From: Aestuariivivens marinum
Lineage (GTDB): Bacteria; Bacteroidota; Bacteroidia; Flavobacteriales; Flavobacteriaceae
DNA: 64,000 nucleotides
NCBI RefSeq assembly: GCF_022662175.1
Contig: NZ_JAKMCR010000005.1
Coordinates: forward strand, 62,001 to 126,000
Direction: 5' to 3'
The notes beneath the pieces are model-generated. The model saw nothing but the letters and a program-made list of their open reading frames with translations. It ran no database searches and was not told the origin of the DNA. Below are positions 3,206 through 12,943 of the stretch, one piece after another (the first letter of the stretch is position 1; each line of letters begins with the position of its first letter). The position numbers were made by a program, and so were the translations under genes.

Positions 3206-4231
3206 TTATCTAAACCCAAAGTTTAGACCTAATGAAAAGGCGTTAAATTCAGATAGATGATATTCTGCATTAAATCTAAAAAAACCGAGCTTTAATTTTG
3301 CACCTATGGTACCCCTTACGCTGGACACTTCACTCGATACCGAAAAAGGGTCTGTATATGTATTGGCAATGAAAGGTCCTCCTGTAACTGTATATGTTCC
3401 TAAAATATCAGATTTTGATTCTCCTTTAATGTATCCCAAACCACCATAAAAATTAATTACGGGTAATTTTGTTGAAGCTACCAACTGTAATAACCAAGTA
3501 TTTGTGTTACTTTCAATACGCTGATTTTCACCGTCTATTTGAAATGTGTCTGTTAAGTTATAGGTTGCATCTAAATTAGTATAGGCGAGCAAACCAGATA
3601 TGGCTACAGGCAATATCTTGTCTGCAGGCAACCATTTAGTAAATTCAATTTGCAAACCCGCACCATACATACTTATATCAACTTCGTCGGTTTTTACCTT
3701 TGGCACAAATCGTGCTTTAAGCTCAAATCCCTTACTCAACCCTATGGCTCCTTGTATAAACGCTGTAGGTAATAAATTAGCTGTAGCATCTCCAATTCCA
3801 GAAGGCAATGTAATACGTTCAGTTAAAAGAGGATTATTATTATCAGATATGTCTATTTGAATATTTGGATCATTTTCACCAAGCGCAGTGGCAACCATTC
3901 TAGTTCTTTCACTTGGATTATCAACAAATTCGACTGAGAAATCTTCAGTTTCGTATAAATCTAAATCCATTAAAAAAATCTTATGTTCATTATTAGATAT
4001 AGAAGCATTTGCTACAATCGATATTTCAAATCCTCCTAAAGGTTTGACGTCAGCAGTGTTAAACCAGTTAGCATTCATACTATACATTAAACCATTGGTT
4101 CCTGGCATTAAATAATCATTAGCAAAACGTTCTGCATTCTCTACACCAGCAGCAAATAAGCCATCAATATCTTGGGCTTTTGAAATTGTAGTTACTATAC
4201 CAAGTAACATAAGTAGGATGAATCTTTTCAT
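3206..4231 (-). CDS. DUF6588 family secreted beta-rich protein
   Basis: A 341-residue protein. The frame extends 16 codons further upstream, but the ATG at 4231 begins a clear signal peptide (MKRFILLMLLGIV, cleavage after SKA), so that start is chosen. The mature part starts DIDGLFAAGVENAERFANDYLMPG, a pattern I associate with the DUF6588 family of Bacteroidota. The rest alternates polar and hydrophobic residues and ends in GLNFGFR, consistent with a beta-barrel or outer-membrane-associated protein. The role is unknown. It stands alone between a terminator and a divergent metalloprotease gene; 4232-4438 holds both promoters. Confidence 0.75.
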   Translation of the reverse strand: MKRFILLMLLGIVTTISKAQDIDGLFAAGVENAERFANDYLMPGTNGLMYSMNANWFNTADVKPLGGFEISIVANASISNNEHKIFLMDLDLYETEDFSVEFVDNPSERTRMVATALGENDPNIQIDISDNNNPLLTERITLPSGIGDATANLLPTAFIQGAIGLSKGFELKARFVPKVKTDEVDISMYGAGLQIEFTKWLPADKILPVAISGLLAYTNLDATYNLTDTFQIDGENQRIESNTNTWLLQLVASTKLPVINFYGGLGYIKGESKSDILGTYTVTGGPFIANTYTDPFSVSSEVSSVRGTIGAKLKLGFFRFNAEYHLSEFNAFSLGLNFGFR

Positions 4232-4438
4232 AACATAAATAAATTTGAGTGTTACAAAAATATAAAATATTTCACACAAAAAGTATTTTAATCGTATATA
4301 TTAATCGTTTAATCGATTATTTATTTAAATTTGGTGGAATATTAAACTAATACTTGTTTTAATATATAGTTAAAATAGACTTAATATTTGTGTAACTTTA
4401 TTTTAAATTTATTGGCAATACCTAGAAATAATAATAAA

Positions 4439-5221
4439 ATGCATAGCCCCATTTCTAAATTAAAACTATTATCCATTTTTTTTGTGTTCCTATTTGTTGG
4501 ATCATGTACAAAAGATGACCCTTCAGACCCTAACGACACAAACAACATTAATGTTTTTAACAATAGGCAAGGCACGGGGAGTTCAGCAAACGATATATTA
4601 TCTGATGACACATTTAAGAGTATGGTTATTGAACTTGTTTATGTAGAAGGCTATGAACCCACTCAAACAGCTATAAATAATTTTGTTTCGTTTCTAACAA
4701 ATCGCATTTATAAACCATCAGGTATTACAGTTTTAAAACGTGCTATTGCTAAGCTTGGACAGGAAACCTATTCTATTGAAGATATTGCCGAAATAGAAAG
4801 AGAAGAACGTGAGATCTATAACACAAATAGTAAAATTGCAATATGGGCCTATTTTACAGATGGTAAATCCGATAAAGACACTGCTGAAAATGTAGTTCTT
4901 GGTACGGCTTACTGGAATACTTCCTTTGTGATTTATGAAGAAACCATTAGAGACCTAAGCAACAGTTCATTGGAACCTAGCCGAAGTCTTTTAGAATCAA
5001 CTGTCATCAATCATGAATTTGGACATATTTTAGGATTGACCAATCTGGGAACGCCCATGCAAACCGAACATGAAGATACTGAACATGAACATCATTGTAA
5101 CGTAGAAAGTTGTCTTATGTATTGGGCTACCGAATCTAAAGTAAGTTTAGGTAATATGAATACCGTACCTCAACTTGATGCCCAATGTTTAGCAGATTTG
5201 CAAGCGAATGGTGGTAAATAA
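4439..5221 (+). CDS. Secreted zinc metalloprotease lipoprotein
   Basis: A 260-residue lipoprotein beginning MHSPISKLKLLSIFF with the lipobox FVGSC. The ATG 51 bases upstream in the same frame would add residues before the signal peptide and is rejected. The zinc motif HEFGHILGL is near residue 192: the HExxHxxG pattern of metzincin-like peptidases, with Glu as general base. The next acidic, His-rich stretch (HEDTEHEHHCN) may supply the third ligand, and a MYW segment further on may be a Met-turn. The protein is predicted to be anchored at the outer membrane or surface. Substrate unknown. It resembles proteins annotated as membrane metalloproteases in flavobacteria. Confidence 0.8.
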   Translation: MHSPISKLKLLSIFFVFLFVGSCTKDDPSDPNDTNNINVFNNRQGTGSSANDILSDDTFKSMVIELVYVEGYEPTQTAINNFVSFLTNRIYKPSGITVLKRAIAKLGQETYSIEDIAEIEREEREIYNTNSKIAIWAYFTDGKSDKDTAENVVLGTAYWNTSFVIYEETIRDLSNSSLEPSRSLLESTVINHEFGHILGLTNLGTPMQTEHEDTEHEHHCNVESCLMYWATESKVSLGNMNTVPQLDAQCLADLQANGGK

Positions 5222-7298: not shown

Positions 7299-7357
7299 TT
7301 AATTTAATTAATTATTTTTCCTGAACTTTGTTTTGAAAAACAGCCTTTCATCAATAT

Positions 7358-7382
7358 AAAAAAATGACGCAAAAGCATCATT
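7358..7382 (-). promoter_or_regulatory. Hairpin plus U-run in the gyrB leader
   Basis: On the minus strand, AATGATGC, loop TTTT, GCGTCATT (8 bp with one G-U pair) and then TTTTT. It sits just downstream of a TATATTTG promoter element and about 115 bases before the gyrB start. It could be a premature terminator, or a 5' stabilising hairpin. Confidence 0.4.
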
Positions 7383-7393
7383 CTCAACACTAA

Positions 7394-7401
7394 CAAATAT
7401 A
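7394..7401 (-). promoter_or_regulatory. Candidate gyrB promoter -7 element
   Basis: TATATTTG on the minus strand fits the Bacteroidota -7 consensus TAnnTTTG exactly. I see no well-spaced TTG for the -33 box, so confidence is moderate. Confidence 0.45.
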
Positions 7402-7748
7402 CGAAATATCAAAACCGCTAAAAAGCATTTCAGCGAGTTTATTCAATAATTATCAACAATTGTTAATTACTTAAAAGTTCTTTAAATCGCTTAAAAAGCA
7501 CCTTAAAATAGATTTTAGCTATTTTTTTAGACTTCAAAATATCTGTTTGGAAATAAAATGGCTTAAAACCTATTTTTTCCATCCCATTCATCTTATTTTT
7601 TAAATGTAAAACACTATTTAACAACTAAAACCTTTATCTTTTCATCAAAAAAAGCACAATACATCACAAAATTTAAAAACACTATAAATATTTATTCCCT
7701 TTTTTAACAATTTAATAATACAGCTTAGTATATATAAAAAAATAGTGC
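7402..7748. other. AT-rich divergent intergenic region, no gene seen
   Basis: Between the gyrB promoter and the promoter of the amidotransferase operon lie about 350 bases of AT-rich DNA without a convincing ORF. A perfect palindrome AACAATTGTT is at 7455-7464, and a single DnaA-box-like TTATCAACA is at 7450-7458. Neither is enough to call a site. Confidence 0.5.
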
Positions 7749-7775
7749 TTGGTACAGGAATTCTGTATATATTTG
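7749..7775 (+). promoter_or_regulatory. Promoter of the gatC-gatA-gatB/aspS operon
   Basis: TTG at 7749-7751 and TATATTTG at 7768-7775, a 16-base spacer. This matches the Bacteroidota sigma-A pattern (-33 TTG, -7 TAnnTTTG). A transcript would start near 7780 and include the leader peptide, the attenuator and the operon. Confidence 0.65.
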
Positions 7776-7792
7776 ATGCTGAAAAGCAATTT

Positions 7793-7840
7793 ATGATATT
7801 TAATAATAACAATAATAATTTCAATAATCCTAAGTATTAG
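7793..7840 (+). CDS. Asn-rich leader peptide of the amidotransferase operon
   Basis: A 15-codon ORF reading M-I-F-N6-F-N2-P-K-Y and stop. Eight of fifteen residues are Asn, all coded AAT or AAC (7802-7819 and 7823-7828). It lies about 13 bases after the predicted transcription start and just before alternative hairpins and a terminator. The downstream operon makes amidated aminoacyl-tRNA. This is the arrangement of a classic amino-acid-operon leader: ribosomes stall at Asn codons when Asn-tRNA is short, and this changes the downstream fold. AT-rich triplets can occur by chance, but the start, stop, pairing regions and gene context agree. Confidence 0.72.
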   Translation: MIFNNNNNNFNNPKY

Positions 7841-7898
7841 GATAGGAAGGTTATTGTTTAAAAATATGTAAAGCCTTCCAAGTTGGAAGGCTTTTTTT
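7827..7898 (+). promoter_or_regulatory. Transcription attenuator (alternative hairpins) for Asn control
   Basis: Three exclusive pairings are visible. 1:2 is ATCCTAA (7827-7833) with TTAGGAT (7837-7843), overlapping the leader stop. 2:3 is GGAAGGTT (7845-7852) with AAGCCTTCC (7871-7879), an antiterminator including one G-U pair. 3:4 is AAAGCCTTCC (7870-7879) with GGAAGGCTTT (7885-7894), followed by seven T. A ribosome waiting at the last Asn codon (7826-7828) would leave 7845-7850 free, so 2:3 forms and transcription continues. A ribosome at the stop codon (7838-7840) would cover 7845-7850, so the terminator forms. Confidence 0.72.
7870..7898 (+). terminator. Intrinsic terminator in the operon leader
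   Basis: A perfect 10-bp stem with loop AAGTT and a seven-T tail, 19 bases before the first structural gene. Its position before, not after, the genes points to attenuation rather than normal termination. Confidence 0.85.
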
Positions 7899-7917
7899 AT
7901 ACAAAACCATTTAAGAC

Positions 7918-8187
7918 ATGAGTAAAATAATGACAGTCGACATTCTGTCGAGTATTAAAGGAGCACAACCCAGTGAAGCTGTAAACAAGTTATTTGAGGT
8001 AATCAAGAATGCTAATCCAGCAAACACTAATACTTTTAAAAACAACCGTAATAATGGCGTGTCATTAAATGATTTAAGGGATGATGTAGTAATAGAAAGT
8101 TCTGAAATGGAAAAACAAATTATTTTAGAGAACTTCCCAAAACAAAAGAACGGTTATTTAGTTGTCTCTAAAGTCATTGAAGAATAG
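7918..8187 (+). CDS. gatC: Divergent GatC-like subunit of the tRNA amidotransferase
   Basis: An 89-residue protein ending two bases before gatA. GatC subunits are about 95 residues; they clasp GatA and carry a C-terminal pattern of LR-D-V followed by a helix and a G-Y-F-V-P-K-V-I-E tail. Here the matching parts are LNDLRDDVVIES and NGYLVVSKVIEE. The N-terminal half is reduced and does not show the usual LA-L-RL helix. The place of gatC in the order C-A-B and the tail pattern support the call. A second in-frame ATG at 7930 is possible. The assignment is inference from motif and context; a simple homology search might label it hypothetical. Confidence 0.65.
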   Translation: MSKIMTVDILSSIKGAQPSEAVNKLFEVIKNANPANTNTFKNNRNNGVSLNDLRDDVVIESSEMEKQIILENFPKQKNGYLVVSKVIEE

Positions 8188-8189
8188 AT

Positions 8190-9590
8190 ATGGATTCCCA
8201 AATACATAAAATACACCAGCAATTGGTAAGTAAGGACATATCCTGTACAGCATTGATACAGGAAAAACTCGATTTATTAAAACCCAATACCCACCATACA
8301 GTAAACAGTTTATTAGATACATTAGCCCTAGACCTAGCATCTAAAGTGGATGCAAAAATTGCCAACGGTGAGTCCATAGGCCTATTGGAAGGCATTCCCT
8401 TTGGTATTAAGGACGTTTACATGGTACAGGGCACCTATACTACTGCAAGCTCCAATTTATTAAAGCATTACAAATCGGCCTATACCGCTACAGCTATCCA
8501 AAAATTACTGGATGCTGGTGCTATTCCTATTGTAAAGGAAAACTGTGATAGTTTTGGTCATGGCTCCTCTAGTGAGAATACAATTTTTGGAGCTGTTAAA
8601 AATGCCATTGATCCCAATCTAGTAGGTGGAGGTTCCAGTGGTGGCTCGGCCGTAAATGTAGCTAAAGACTACACTGTATTTTCTATTGGTGGCGACACCG
8701 GAGGATCTGTACGTCAGCCAGCTGGTTACAATAAGGTTTATGGATTAAAACCTACCTACGGACGTATTTCCAGATATGGCTTAATGGCCTATGCCTCGTC
8801 TACCGATTGTGTTGGCCCTATTGCCAAATCACTTGAGGACATCCGCATTGTATTAAATGTGATGAGTGGTAAGGACATTAAAGATCAAACTACCTATGAC
8901 TCAAAACCCATTTTTGAATCCAATATTTCAAATATTGAAAACATTAAAACCATAGGGTATTTTAAAAACTTTATTGAAAGCAATGCTATTGATGGTCAAG
9001 TGAAAGCTGATTTTTTAACTGTTATCGAAAAAGTAAAGGCCAAAGGTATTCAAGTCAAAGTACTCGATTTTTTTGAATCGGAAACCTTGGTTTCAACATA
9101 CTATACTTTGGCCATGGCTGAAACGGCCTCTAACCTGTCACGGTTGGATGGCTCCAACTACGGCAATCGTATTGAATCCGAAAACCTTAAGGAAACTTAT
9201 GCAGTAACGCGTTCTGAAAATTTTTCAGAAGAAACCAAACGCAGAATTGTTGGTGGCAACCAAGTACTATCGCAAGGTTTTGCTGATGAGATTTATTTAA
9301 AGGCATTGGCGATTCGCGATCAAATTTCAGCAAATTTTGAAAATGATTTTAAAGAGGTTGATATTATTCTTTCTCCAGTAACTCCAAACACACCTCCTAA
9401 AATTGGGGATAGCTTAAAAGATCCGCTAGCCATGTACTTGTCCGATGCCTATACCGTAGGGTTTAGCTTAGGGCAACTGCCTACTTTAACCGTTCCGCAG
9501 GGTACGGTAACTGGCTTACAAATTACGGCTGCAAAAGATAGAGACGAACGCGTTTTACAATTTGCTAACTTTTTAAAAGACACGATATAA
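8190..9590 (+). CDS. gatA: Asp/Glu-tRNA amidotransferase subunit A
   Basis: A 466-residue amidase-signature subunit that releases ammonia from glutamine (or asparagine) and passes it to GatB for amidation of misacylated tRNA. The catalytic triad is visible: Lys74 in FGIKDVY, Ser149 in GGGSSGGSA and nucleophile Ser173 in GGDTGGSVRQPAGY. These align with Lys79, Ser154 and Ser178 of the well-studied staphylococcal enzyme. It starts 2 bases after the gatC-like gene, and its stop codon overlaps the start of gatB-aspS by one base, so translation is probably coupled. Cytoplasmic. Confidence 0.95.
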   Translation: MDSQIHKIHQQLVSKDISCTALIQEKLDLLKPNTHHTVNSLLDTLALDLASKVDAKIANGESIGLLEGIPFGIKDVYMVQGTYTTASSNLLKHYKSAYTATAIQKLLDAGAIPIVKENCDSFGHGSSSENTIFGAVKNAIDPNLVGGGSSGGSAVNVAKDYTVFSIGGDTGGSVRQPAGYNKVYGLKPTYGRISRYGLMAYASSTDCVGPIAKSLEDIRIVLNVMSGKDIKDQTTYDSKPIFESNISNIENIKTIGYFKNFIESNAIDGQVKADFLTVIEKVKAKGIQVKVLDFFESETLVSTYYTLAMAETASNLSRLDGSNYGNRIESENLKETYAVTRSENFSEETKRRIVGGNQVLSQGFADEIYLKALAIRDQISANFENDFKEVDIILSPVTPNTPPKIGDSLKDPLAMYLSDAYTVGFSLGQLPTLTVPQGTVTGLQITAAKDRDERVLQFANFLKDTI

Positions 9591-12500
9591 TGGAGCTAGG
9601 AAAATTAAATGATCTATTAAAAGCTCACGAAATAGAGTTAGTTATCGGTTTAGAAACCCATATTCGATTAAATACCAAAACCAAATTGTTCTGTTCTTGT
9701 CCTAATGAAGAAACAGAACAACCCAATACCCACATCTGTTCGGTCTGTACGGGGCAAATGGGTGTGCTTCCAGCCGTAAACAAGGAAGCGATTAAGAAGG
9801 CCATTTACTTTGGTAAAGCAGTGAAATCAACTTTTGAAAACGATGTGATTTCATGGGACAGAAAGCATTACGAATACCCCGACAACCCTAAGAATATTCA
9901 AATCACACAATTTCACAATCCCATAATTCCAGATGGACAGGTGTCTTGTTTTAGGAATGATGGTTCAGAATTTACGGTTAATTTAACCCAAGTGCATATT
10001 GAGGAGGATGCCGCCAAATTAATGCATGAAAAAAATGTGTCTTTGGTGGATTTTAACAAGGCAGGGGTTCCTTTAATTGAAATTGTTACCGAACCCTGTA
10101 TCCATCACATTGAAGACGCTTCAACATATGCACAGTACTTACAGCGTATTGTTCAGAACTTAAAAATTTCGGAAGCCAACTTAGAAAAAGGAGAATTTAA
10201 AAGTGATGTTTCAGTTTCCCTACGTAAAAAACGCAGTTATGTACTAAATCCACGTACCGAGATTAAAAACCTGAACTCCTTTAAGTTTATGACCGAAGCC
10301 TTAAAGGAAGAAGTTGAAAAACAACTGAACTATTACATAGAGCACAAGGCCTTTAGACCAGACCAAACTACCGTTCTTTTTGATGCCGATTTAAAACAAA
10401 CCAAGACCATGCGCAAAAAGGAGTACGAAGCCGATTATCGCTTTATCTCCGAACCAGATCTTCCATTTGTCAATATTAAGGATGCCGTTGAGTCGATTGA
10501 TGTCAATACCAGTTCCCTGCCCTATGCCGTAGAACGCATTTTAATAAAAGGCGGCGTGTTACCCCAAGATGCTAAGTTTTTTACAGGGGATTCCTTACGG
10601 TCTGAAACTTTTGTAGCTATTAACAATGTGATTAAGGAACCCTCTTTTGTTGCCAAAACCTTAACTAACAACATTAAGCCAGAAGACTATTCAAAAATTG
10701 AAAACGTTTCAGATTTCACAGCCATATTTTCATTGTTTAAGGATGAAAAAGTAACGCCCGTATTGGCCCAAAATGCGATAGCTTCCTTATTGGCCGATGC
10801 TACATTCGACTATCAATCCTATTTCGAGGCCAACACCATTTCCGAAGAAAAAATACAGGATGCCATTCAGCAGGTGATTACTGAAAATGAAGCTATTGCC
10901 AATGATATAAAAACTGGAAACCAAGGCAAATCCGGTATTTTGGTTGGAAAAGTTATCGCTATTATTGGGAAAGGAGCTTCAGGAAAATTTATTCGAGAAG
11001 GTATTTTAAAAGCCTGTGCTGCTGCAGATATTGTAGGCACGGAGACTGAATACCGAAGTGTGAGCACTCCTAAACAACAAACAACAAGCAACAAGCAACA
11101 AACCGTAAAAGTACAAGAAGAAGAAAAGCTACCTGAAATTCCCATTGTGATAAAGGATACCTACCGTACCCATAAGGCATCACAATTATCTGAAGGTTCC
11201 ATTTCCCAAAAAGTGACTTTAGCAGGTTGGGTATCGAGTGTACGTGACCACGGCGAGCTTATCTTTATCGACTTGCGCGATTCCAGTCATGAAATTTTCC
11301 AAGTGCGTTTAAGCAGGGAATCGTTCCCTAACCTTGATGAATTGGTAAAATTAAAGCCAGAATCTGTAATTACCGTAACCGGTGTTGTGGTACAGCGCGA
11401 TGCAGATGACTATAATCCTACGCTTAGAACGGGAACCATTGAACTGGAGACCTCGGAACTGGATATCCTAAACCTATCCAGAACCCTGCCCTTTGAAATA
11501 AAACGTGCCCATAAATCGAACGAAACAGTACGTTTTCAACATAAATATCTCGACCACAGAAACGATGATGTGCGTCGCGCTATAGTTAACCGACATAAGG
11601 TCATTAAACTGATGCGTGACATATTGGATAAACAGGAATTCTTGGAAGTAGAAACTCCTATCCTTACTGCAGGAACCGATGAAGGCGCTAGGGAATTTAT
11701 AGTACCTACTCGTAAAAAAGCAGGGTCTTTCTATACCTTACCACAAGCACCGCAACAGTTTAAACAAATTTTAATGGTTAGTGGTTATGAAAAATATTTC
11801 CAGATAGCTCGTTGTTTTAGGGACGAAGATTCCCGTGGTGATCGGCAACCAGAGTTTACACAGTTGGATATTGAAATGGCCTACGCCAGTATGCAGGATA
11901 TTATTGATTTAAACACCAATATGTTTAATGACATCGTAACCAAAATCTATGGAAATAAATGGATCTTACACCCATTTGAAGTCATTAGCTATAAGGACGC
12001 CATGGATAAATACGGTTGCGACCGGCCAGATTTACGTTTTGGATTACAACTTAAGGACATTACCGATATTGTTAAGGAAACAACATTTCAAGTGTTCAGT
12101 AAACCCATTGATGAAGGTGGTATTGTAAAATGCATTAAAGTTTCTGCGAAAGAACAAGGTAAAAAGCGCTTATCTAAAGGACAGATTGAGAAACTAACAG
12201 CCATTGCCCAAGACCATGGCTTGGGTGGACTGGCCTATATTATTGTAAACGAAAACGATTTGCAGTCGCCGATAATTAAATTTTTGGGTGAAGCTATTGC
12301 CGAAAACATCATCAAAACAACCAAAGCAGAGGTTGGTGACATTGTGTTCTTTTCGGCTGCCGATTACGAAACAGCCAATAAAGCCTTGGATGCCGTGAGA
12401 CAAGAGTTAGGGAAGATGTTAAAGCTAATCAATCCTAAAGAATTACGACCAGCCTGGGTGGTCGACTTCCCTATGTTTGAAAAAACCGAAGATGGTCACT

Positions 12501-12943
12501 GGACCTTTACCCACAACCCCTTCTCCATGCCCTCCGTTAAGGATATTGAGAAGCACATTAATGGTAAGGAAGCAGAAATAGGAAGTATTATTGCCCAACA
12601 ATACGATTTAATATTGAACGGCTATGAGATTGGGGGCGGCTCCATTAGGGCGCACAAACCAGAAATCTTGGAAGCCACTTATAGAAATATGGGATATAAT
12701 AAAGACGAGATGCTAAAGAGTGTAGGAACCATGTATAAAGCCTTCCATTATGGCGCACCACCACACGGTGGTATTGCATGGGGTGTAGACCGGTTAATGA
12801 TGATTTTAGAGAAAAAAGCGTCGATAAGGGAAGTCATGGCCTTCCCTAAAACAGGAACCAGCGAGGACTTATTATTTGGCTCACCCTCACCACTATCGGA
12901 TAAAAAGGTTGAGGAAATGAACGTAAAAGTAATTAGGAAATAA
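9590..12943 (+). CDS. gatB/aspS: GatB / aspartyl-tRNA synthetase fusion protein
   Basis: A 1117-residue fusion. Residues 1 to about 485 are GatB: IGLETHIRLNTKTK, four zinc-binding Cys (35, 37, 50, 53), then the helical and YqeY-like tail ending GKASGKFIREG-like. A Gln/Thr-rich linker (about 488-515) follows. From about 516 to the end is a bacterial-type AspRS: OB fold (GWVSSVRDHGELIFIDLRD), class II motif 2 (CFRDEDSRGDRQPEF), a GAD-type insertion, and motif 3 (GIAWGVDRLMMI). The chain would charge tRNA with Asp and help amidate Asp-tRNA(Asn). I see no stop or frameshift at the junction. NCBI annotates similar flavobacterial fusions, so the fusion itself is known. Confidence 0.95.
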   Translation: MELGKLNDLLKAHEIELVIGLETHIRLNTKTKLFCSCPNEETEQPNTHICSVCTGQMGVLPAVNKEAIKKAIYFGKAVKSTFENDVISWDRKHYEYPDNPKNIQITQFHNPIIPDGQVSCFRNDGSEFTVNLTQVHIEEDAAKLMHEKNVSLVDFNKAGVPLIEIVTEPCIHHIEDASTYAQYLQRIVQNLKISEANLEKGEFKSDVSVSLRKKRSYVLNPRTEIKNLNSFKFMTEALKEEVEKQLNYYIEHKAFRPDQTTVLFDADLKQTKTMRKKEYEADYRFISEPDLPFVNIKDAVESIDVNTSSLPYAVERILIKGGVLPQDAKFFTGDSLRSETFVAINNVIKEPSFVAKTLTNNIKPEDYSKIENVSDFTAIFSLFKDEKVTPVLAQNAIASLLADATFDYQSYFEANTISEEKIQDAIQQVITENEAIANDIKTGNQGKSGILVGKVIAIIGKGASGKFIREGILKACAAADIVGTETEYRSVSTPKQQTTSNKQQTVKVQEEEKLPEIPIVIKDTYRTHKASQLSEGSISQKVTLAGWVSSVRDHGELIFIDLRDSSHEIFQVRLSRESFPNLDELVKLKPESVITVTGVVVQRDADDYNPTLRTGTIELETSELDILNLSRTLPFEIKRAHKSNETVRFQHKYLDHRNDDVRRAIVNRHKVIKLMRDILDKQEFLEVETPILTAGTDEGAREFIVPTRKKAGSFYTLPQAPQQFKQILMVSGYEKYFQIARCFRDEDSRGDRQPEFTQLDIEMAYASMQDIIDLNTNMFNDIVTKIYGNKWILHPFEVISYKDAMDKYGCDRPDLRFGLQLKDITDIVKETTFQVFSKPIDEGGIVKCIKVSAKEQGKKRLSKGQIEKLTAIAQDHGLGGLAYIIVNENDLQSPIIKFLGEAIAENIIKTTKAEVGDIVFFSAADYETANKALDAVRQELGKMLKLINPKELRPAWVVDFPMFEKTEDGHWTFTHNPFSMPSVKDIEKHINGKEAEIGSIIAQQYDLILNGYEIGGGSIRAHKPEILEATYRNMGYNKDEMLKSVGTMYKAFHYGAPPHGGIAWGVDRLMMILEKKASIREVMAFPKTGTSEDLLFGSPSPLSDKKVEEMNVKVIRK

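Follow-up and report, generated by a model that had tools for sequence, protein, structure and literature searches.

A conserved leader and terminator, very probably a ribosome-mediated attenuator sensing Asn-tRNA(Asn), upstream of a GatCAB/AspRS operon in Flavobacteriaceae

Attenuators of the trp, his, leu and ilv type consist of a leader open reading frame (ORF) containing codons for the regulated amino acid, followed by an antiterminator and a terminator that share a strand; in trp-type attenuators, a 1:2 hairpin enforces termination in untranslated RNA. The Bacteroid-trp RNA motif is a trp attenuator, and T-boxes, which have no leader peptide, bind tRNA directly. In the covered part of a paper that adds hisS of Firmicutes, leader-peptide systems are said to have been shown, to the knowledge of its authors and with ermC set aside, only in Proteobacteria and Actinobacteria (PMC2965389). 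T-boxes, according to the text covered of another study, were not found upstream of the amidotransferase genes considered, nor in seven Bacteroidetes/Chlorobi genomes (PMC2494555), and small ORFs reminiscent of leader peptides are reported, in the portion of the source covered, for Bacteroides thetaiotaomicron (PMC7366714). The titles and abstracts listed in searches of the open literature, mostly without subscription papers, describe neither an Asn-specific leader nor control of the flavobacterial GatCAB/AspRS operon, by a T-box or otherwise, and no attenuator or leader peptide from flavobacteria or other Bacteroidota among them matches the element described here.

We analyzed a 64,000-nucleotide stretch of the Aestuariivivens marinum genome (hereafter, the window), in which an initial annotation had proposed an attenuator with a 15-codon leader, eight Asn codons and a seven-T terminator 19 bases upstream of a gatC-like/gatA/gatB-aspS operon. 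The features are collected in Table 1. Direct reading of the sequence bears out the leader: the ATG at 7793 is followed by ATA, TTT, AAT, AAT, AAC, AAT, AAT, AAT, TTC, AAT, AAT, CCT, AAG, TAT and the TAG stop. The terminator holds as well, with T residues at 7892-7898 and the gatC start at 7918, that is, 19 bases beyond the terminator end at 7898. The genes of the operon are identified by domain matches, GatC weakly.

Table 1. Features of the leader region and the operon (positions in the window)
Feature	Position	Strand	Basis
Predicted Bacteroidota-type -7 promoter element TATATTTG (TAnnTTTG)	7768..7775	+	motif conserved upstream of leaders
Leader peptide ORF MIFNNNNNNFNNPKY*, 15 codons, 8 Asn, TAG stop 7838-7840	7793..7840	+	sequence and conservation
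Arm 1 (AACAATAAT..TTTC), within the Asn codons	7808..7822	+	pairing and consensus structure
Inner hairpin ATCCTAA/TTAGGAT (7827-7833/7837-7843), around the leader ORF end and stop	7827..7843	+	consensus structure
Arm 2: GGAAGG 7845-7850 (antiterminator strand) and TTATTGTT 7851-7858 (arm 1 partner)	7845..7858	+	pairing
Intrinsic terminator, stem 7870-7881/7883-7894, T run 7892-7898	7870..7898	+	terminator search, folding
Arm 3 GCCTTCC, common to antiterminator (2:3) and terminator (3:4)	7873..7879	+	invariance, pairing
GatC-like subunit, 89 aa	7918..8187	+	Pfam PF02686, 23.3 bits vs cut-off 23
gatA, amidase subunit, 466 aa	8190..9590	+	TIGR00132, E 1.6e-127, 426 bits; Pfam Amidase
gatB-aspS fusion, 1117 aa: GatB catalytic, GatB/YqeY and bacterial AspRS domains	9590..12943	+	profile matches

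To assess conservation, we searched 397 Flavobacteriaceae genomes for the GatB portion of the fusion; it was present in 59 of them, representing 40 of 237 genera. The gatC gene and its upstream sequence could be read in 57 loci, including the window; in two genomes (G170 and G140), the stretch ends before gatC. The leader is present in 35 of the 57 readable operons and absent from 22. An RNA model built from the 35 leaders and run with strict search filters, which lose weak matches, produced 37 strong matches (at least 92.8 bits) in the 397 genomes, each located directly before gatC, and the next match scored 55.9 bits. The two leaders beyond the original 35 (loci L139 and L140) come from G170, where the leader lies on another contig, and from G124, where it lies at a contig end, so that GatB went undetected and this genome is counted among the 338 fusion-negative ones; gatC follows in both. 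Altogether, there are 37 leadered and 22 leaderless readable operons (37/59), with G140 unreadable. At E <= 0.01, some match to the model was present in 157 of the 397 genomes, most of these being weak among the matches listed. Two weak matches were inspected, namely, a plain terminator (L141) and an Ile/Val leader before ilvD (L142). The latter region (about 2740-3220 of L142, genome G250) contains two tandem Ile/Val-rich mini-ORFs, each followed by a terminator-like hairpin, upstream of an ilvD-like ORF (3225-4904, named by eye). Judging from their sequence, these mini-ORFs are probably attenuators of branched-chain amino-acid genes; the region matches nothing in Rfam at gathering score.

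A pattern scan of a second collection, with one genome per species, returned 79 stretches, 78 of which have gatC downstream, the remaining one (L230) being cut off 70 bases past the Phe codon. Because the scan pattern was built on the Phe-Asn-Asn-Pro core, together with the stop hairpin and arm 2, the core and arm 2 are fixed by design, and only gatC, the promoter and the Asn codons upstream of the core count as findings from this collection. The 78 parsed leaders contain 7 to 10 Asn codons each. The 79 stretches come from genera including Algibacter, Polaribacter, Flavivirga, Tamlana, Confluentibacter, Seonamhaeicola, Hyunsoonleella, Aestuariivivens, Mariniflexile and Tenacibaculum; the two collections overlap in species, and the counts are not additive. 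A phylum-wide sample of 395 genomes added two Flavobacteriaceae operons with 75-76% identity, both leaderless. Among the other matches listed for this sample, GatB identity is at most 41%, and most of the open frames have the length usual for GatB. A distant GatB match with 38% identity (G492:C9:72516-73469) falls within an open frame whose 1199 aa exceed the length of GatB alone, and is perhaps another fusion.

The leader ORF evolves like a coding sequence. In the 37 leaders, Asn is retained in 289 of the 296 core codon cells (eight core positions in each leader), and the departures from the commonest codon comprise 33 synonymous and 7 non-synonymous ones; these figures count cells, not events, given that the leader sequences are related. 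Every leader contains 7 to 10 Asn codons, and TAG is the stop in all 37. The two Asn codons of the Phe-Asn-Asn (FNN) motif encode Asn in 37 of 37 leaders, the sole changes being AAT to AAC in two cells, and of the six bases of these two codons, only the last is paired in the consensus structure. For the Asn codons upstream of FNN, there are 31 synonymous and 7 non-synonymous changes. The codon after Pro, which is Lys in the window, is Asn in 26 of the 37 leaders. The distances to the antiterminator strand are narrowly constrained as well, with 18-20 nt from the last FNN Asn codon to GGAAGG and 6-8 nt from the stop to GGAAGG in all 37 leaders. The conservation of the Asn codons, of these spacings and of the terminator across all 37 leaders is what a check proposed in the initial annotation called for. 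An origin of the Asn codons from an AAT microsatellite was considered and rejected, in view of the mixtures of AAC and AAT and the conserved reading frame. Thus, the leader contains a short ORF that appears to be translated and is enriched in codons for the amino acid predicted to be regulated. The conservation of the element rules out a chance origin and, at the level of sequence, confirms leader and terminator as a real, conserved attenuator element.

The promoter also appears to be conserved. TAnnTTTG is the Bacteroidota promoter consensus, and in all 35 leadered loci this motif starts 18-31 nt ahead of the leader ORF, so transcription in the window is predicted to start a few bases downstream of TATATTTG. 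In the second collection, a match to TAnn(T/C)TTG within the expected 50-nt stretch was present in 79 of 79 stretches, a raw count that comes with no chance expectation. The predicted promoter in the window is spanned by an imperfect inverted repeat of 21 nt (7721-7741/7761-7781, 71%). A promoter and a terminator could also belong to an unrelated small RNA, expressed constitutively or under a regulatory factor, with the leader ORF left untranslated. Either scenario would yield a short RNA of some 110 nt, and 31 of 35 loci lack a Shine-Dalgarno-like match ahead of the leader, although all 35 also lack one ahead of gatC. Against such an RNA stand the codon-like substitutions, the conserved stop with its conserved distance to arm 2, and the fact that all 37 strong matches to the RNA model are linked to gatC, which together make it exceedingly unlikely.

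The RNA structure accommodates the alternative pairings on which an attenuator depends. The terminator stem is a 12-base inverted repeat without mismatches, after which T residues extend to 7898; arm 4 (GGAAGGC) lies at 7885-7891, and the 3:4 helix is this terminator. The 2:3 helix is formed by GGAAGG (7845-7850) and CCTTCC, and the 1:2 helix by AACAATAA (7808-7815) and TTATTGTT (7851-7858), together with TTTC (7819-7822) and GGAA, enclosing the inner hairpin. Folding of 7793-7898 gave a z-score of -5.44, with none of 200 shuffled sequences as stable. Five terminator-like sites, including that of the leader, were detected on both strands of 7300-8400, compared with 0.4 expected from shuffled sequences. 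In each of the 35 leadered loci, a predicted intrinsic terminator precedes the first structural gene, with its end 17-58 nt ahead of gatC.

In the 35 aligned leaders, the 2:3 helix can pair in 280 of 280 cells, compared with 26.8-74.6% when the strands are slid against each other; double changes occur in none of its eight pairs, and the near-invariance of the helix makes shuffling uninformative. Across the 29 pairs of the consensus structure, two show compensatory double changes, the clearest case being the loop-proximal terminator pair, which is G-C in 17 sequences and A-U in 12, with no pair at this position in the other 6. The arms vary so little that covariation is thin. As regards the covarying arms anticipated in the initial annotation, the 2:3 pairing is fully conserved and the covariation is slight. 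Arm 3 is identical in 35 of 35 aligned leaders, as would be expected of a strand that has to pair with two alternative partners, arm 2 and arm 4. An ACCTTCC variant of arm 3 occurs in 2 of 84 distinct leaders, one of which is L140, together with a matching change in arm 4.

We modelled the switch for the 84 distinct leaders on RNA cut off where arm 3 ends. The mean probability of the 2:3 helix was 0.991 when a ribosome occupied the last FNN Asn codon, and 0.995 and 0.988 for two earlier Asn codons; with a ribosome at the stop codon, it was 0.005, and that of the terminator was 0.999. When the edge of the ribosome footprint was moved from +9 to +16, the probability of 2:3 at the last FNN Asn remained at or above 0.99. 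At the stop codon, this probability depended on the footprint (0.63 with the first free base at +9 from the A site, 0.01 at +13), and for a stall at the codon after Pro, it was 1.0 with a short footprint, 0.98 at +13 and 0.47 at +16. With footprint variation from +9 to +16 included in the modelling, stall and release are well separated at the usual footprints. The geometry proposed for the window, whereby a ribosome stalled at the last Asn codon frees GGAAGG and one at the stop codon covers it, is thus reproduced by the model, with an antiterminator that shares a strand with the terminator, would be covered at the stop and would be freed by a stall.

The third pairing fares less well. In the model without a ribosome, the mean probability of 2:3 was 0.883, exceeding 0.5 in 79 of the 84 leaders; the 1:2 hairpin is conserved and part of the minimum free energy structure of the full leader, yet 2:3 is favoured at equilibrium. 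All three helices of the proposed mutually exclusive set are present; what does not stand is the ability of 1:2 to outcompete 2:3 at equilibrium without a ribosome. A role of 1:2 as a strong protector that keeps the operon off by default is therefore unsupported at equilibrium, and untranslated RNA would be read through unless kinetics favour 1:2. The hairpin appears weaker in the model than originally implied, its role is doubtful, and in practice the switch may operate mainly with two pairings rather than three.

These properties bear on what is sensed. The switch might respond to the general state of translation, that is, to slowed or absent ribosomes, with the Asn codons incidental to an AT-rich arm. 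Arm 1 lies inside the Asn codons, so that pairing alone constrains some of them, and in the model 2:3 is favoured without a ribosome too. The FNN Asn codons, however, are mostly unpaired and nevertheless invariant at the amino acid level in the 37 leaders, the upstream Asn codons vary mostly synonymously, and the regulated genes would make the same aminoacyl-tRNA that the codons would sense. Control by the general state of translation is, in our assessment, very unlikely. We instead hold it to be very probable, from the sequence comparison and the modelling taken together, that the element is a ribosome-mediated attenuator that senses Asn-tRNA(Asn) and controls an operon for tRNA-dependent Asn synthesis.

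The operon itself is consistent with this function. The GatC-like protein scores below the cut-offs of both NCBIfam gatC models, and GatA is under the TIGR00132 equivalog cut-off of 481 bits. In all but one of the 59 genomes, the open frame of the fusion measures 1115-1130 aa; the exception, near a contig end, measures 809 aa. This GatB fused to a second AspRS shows a patchy spread over the 40 genera. The window genome also encodes a separate AspRS of 584 aa and an AsnRS. The fused AspRS contains the motif RDHG in 59 of 59 copies (the 57 readable loci, G586 and G540), and the separate AspRS, compared in the window genome, reads RDKG; the His in RDHG may mark a non-discriminating AspRS that accepts tRNA(Asn), although term searches of two papers did not turn up this role of the residue. 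ARAGORN was run on 10 of the 30 fetched loci, and the tRNA(Asn) genes read by eye in nine loci have T1, A72 and G73 in nine of nine. Bacterial GatCAB requires U1-A72 in tRNA(Asn), according to the covered text of PMC4206432, and the T1 and A72 of these genes meet this requirement. Thus, GatA, GatB, GatC and AspRS genes occur together with U1-A72 tRNA(Asn), the predicted equipment for tRNA-dependent Asn biosynthesis.

The remainder of the genomic complement points in the same direction. Bacteroidetes are named, in the part of PMC4206432 covered, among the groups with AsnRS, GlnRS and GatCAB and no Asn synthetase. Among the 59 operon genomes, AsnRS is over the cut-off in 54 and GlnRS is present in 58, the sole miss being a genome that is 76% complete; AsnA was sought in all 59 and found in none. 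An AsnB-type protein over the cut-off is encoded in 23 of the 59 operon genomes as opposed to 307 of the 338 others (330 of 397 in all), a depletion with a Fisher p of about 1e-17 when genomes are treated as independent of kinship. That AsnB is so much rarer in operon genomes suggests how these bacteria make asparagine. The window genome encodes two AsnB-type proteins over the cut-off (open frames of 605 and 614 aa), and hence Asn need not come only from the operon, and dependence is not strict there. Judging from gene content, the operon genes probably make asparagine on tRNA in many marine flavobacteria.

Both Asp-tRNA(Asn) and Glu-tRNA(Gln) are substrates that GatCAB enzymes can amidate, and this dual capacity, along with the AsnRS in those 54 operon genomes, leaves room for an attenuator that is real and an enzyme that mainly produces Gln-tRNA(Gln) or is a relic. 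Such an outcome is very unlikely indeed, given that GlnRS is missing only from the 76% complete genome, that the fusion partner is AspRS rather than GluRS, that AsnB is rarer in the operon genomes, and that the window leader has Asn codons and no Gln codon. The proposal in the initial annotation that the physiological product is Asn-tRNA(Asn) rather than Gln-tRNA(Gln) fits the near-universal GlnRS and the AsnB depletion, and tRNA-dependent Asn synthesis under Asn-tRNA feedback is the simplest joint reading of these sequence data.

The mechanism that we envisage is as follows. RNA polymerase would start just upstream of 7793, and a ribosome would enter the leader ORF. When Asn-tRNA(Asn) is plentiful, the ribosome would reach the TAG and cover GGAAGG of arm 2, arms 3 and 4 would form the terminator, and the operon would be off. 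When it is scarce, the ribosome would stall on an Asn codon, and the free arm 2 would capture arm 3, permitting readthrough into gatC-gatA-gatB/aspS. The AspRS fused to GatB is predicted to charge tRNA(Asn) with Asp, and amidation would restore Asn-tRNA(Asn) and supply Asn. In this computational picture, the sequence, its conservation, the pairing potential and the gene content are observed directly, and the transcript ends, the stalling, the switching, the AspRS specificity and the enzymatic product are inferred; most likely, the operon is switched on when charged asparagine tRNA is short.

Operons lacking the leader appear to have a different upstream element. An alignment of 24 leaderless upstream regions (L039, L040, L043, L046, L050, L057, L058, L064, L066, L067, L070, L072, L076, L079, L080, L082, L084, L087, L091-L094, L143 and L144) revealed a shared block, about AAA.CTTT.GTAATTT, located some 50-60 nt before gatC and in some cases carrying a partial inverted AAACTTT/AAAGTTT. 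Judging from its sequence, this block may combine a promoter and an operator. Of 23 genomes searched (22 leaderless ones and that of the window), 10 contain the exact pattern AAAACTTTNGTAATTTNGC, once in each and always beginning 51-60 nt before gatC. The idea that the block stems from a common strong promoter is unsupported, since the exact pattern occurs at most once per genome in these 23.

On a tree of GatA and GatB-AspRS (59 rows, quick method), the leader state changed at least seven times by well-supported branches and ten times on the best tree. The presence of the leader is not explained by AsnB, for which no association was detected (12 of 35 leadered versus 10 of 22 leaderless, p 0.42). 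AsnRS scored under the cut-off in four near-complete genomes, G237 (L082), G228 (L091), G180 (L093) and G383 (L094), all leaderless; with AsnRS unfound, GatCAB should be their only route to Asn-tRNA. AsnRS is absent in 4 of 22 leaderless as opposed to 0 of 34 leadered genomes (p 0.02) when G271, a 76% complete genome with a leader and with AsnRS not over the cut-off, is dropped. With G271 counted, p is 0.07, and three of the four genomes are close kin, so that the association of leader absence with AsnRS absence is only a hint.

Taken as a whole, these observations tilt us, at somewhat better than even chances, toward a broader scenario in which part of the Flavobacteriaceae makes Asn mainly on tRNA, by a dedicated GatCA and GatB-AspRS that replaced asparagine synthetase, under the first Asn-specific ribosome-mediated attenuator, with the sensed Asn-tRNA being the direct product of the regulated enzyme, and in which related lineages, including the four near-complete genomes without AsnRS, repeatedly lost the switch or swapped it for another operon-specific upstream element. 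If correct, this would bring asparagine and an operon for tRNA amidation within the reach of leader-peptide attenuation, define a clear class of regulatory RNAs in flavobacteria, and identify Asn-tRNA, and hence Asn, as the physiological product of a fused GatB-AspRS most of whose hosts already have AsnRS and GlnRS.

Comparison with described RNA elements sets the leader apart from those that are closest. No Rfam family matched at gathering score in 7300-8400 or in four leader loci, one of them that of the window, and the T-box covariance model (Rfam release 15, E up to 10) was absent among the 16 matches in 7300-8400. The best sub-threshold match on the leader, Phe_leader (31 bits versus 55), was rejected, as it looks like a generic terminator match. 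The Bacteroid-trp RNA motif (RF01692) is listed, in the covered part of PMC2864571, as a structured RNA candidate for Bacteroidetes. The Asn T-box of Clostridium acetobutylicum (2012), cited and briefly discussed in PMC4206432, represents, by its title, RNA control of tRNA-dependent amidation with redundant routes to Asn and Asn-tRNA. As a T-box, it differs from the present element in binding tRNA directly and having no leader peptide. The dual Asn-tRNA pathways of Bdellovibrio, Deinococcus and Thermus, as presented in the covered text of the same paper, likewise combine AsnRS, GlnRS and GatCAB, with tRNA-dependent Asn formation where AsnA/AsnB are missing. In Bdellovibrio, gatCAB and aspS are separate genes, with no leader mentioned in the passages covered, whereas the flavobacterial GatB has a second, bacterial-type AspRS as its fusion partner. 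On the best reading, then, the flavobacterial leader is a known kind of switch whose Asn specificity and target appear in no paper or Rfam family searched. It resembles the trp, his, leu and ilv attenuators in its leader codons, in the alternatives that share a strand and in its position shortly before the first gene, and it differs from them in its Asn codons, in its association with a tRNA amidotransferase/synthetase operon and in its occurrence in Bacteroidota.
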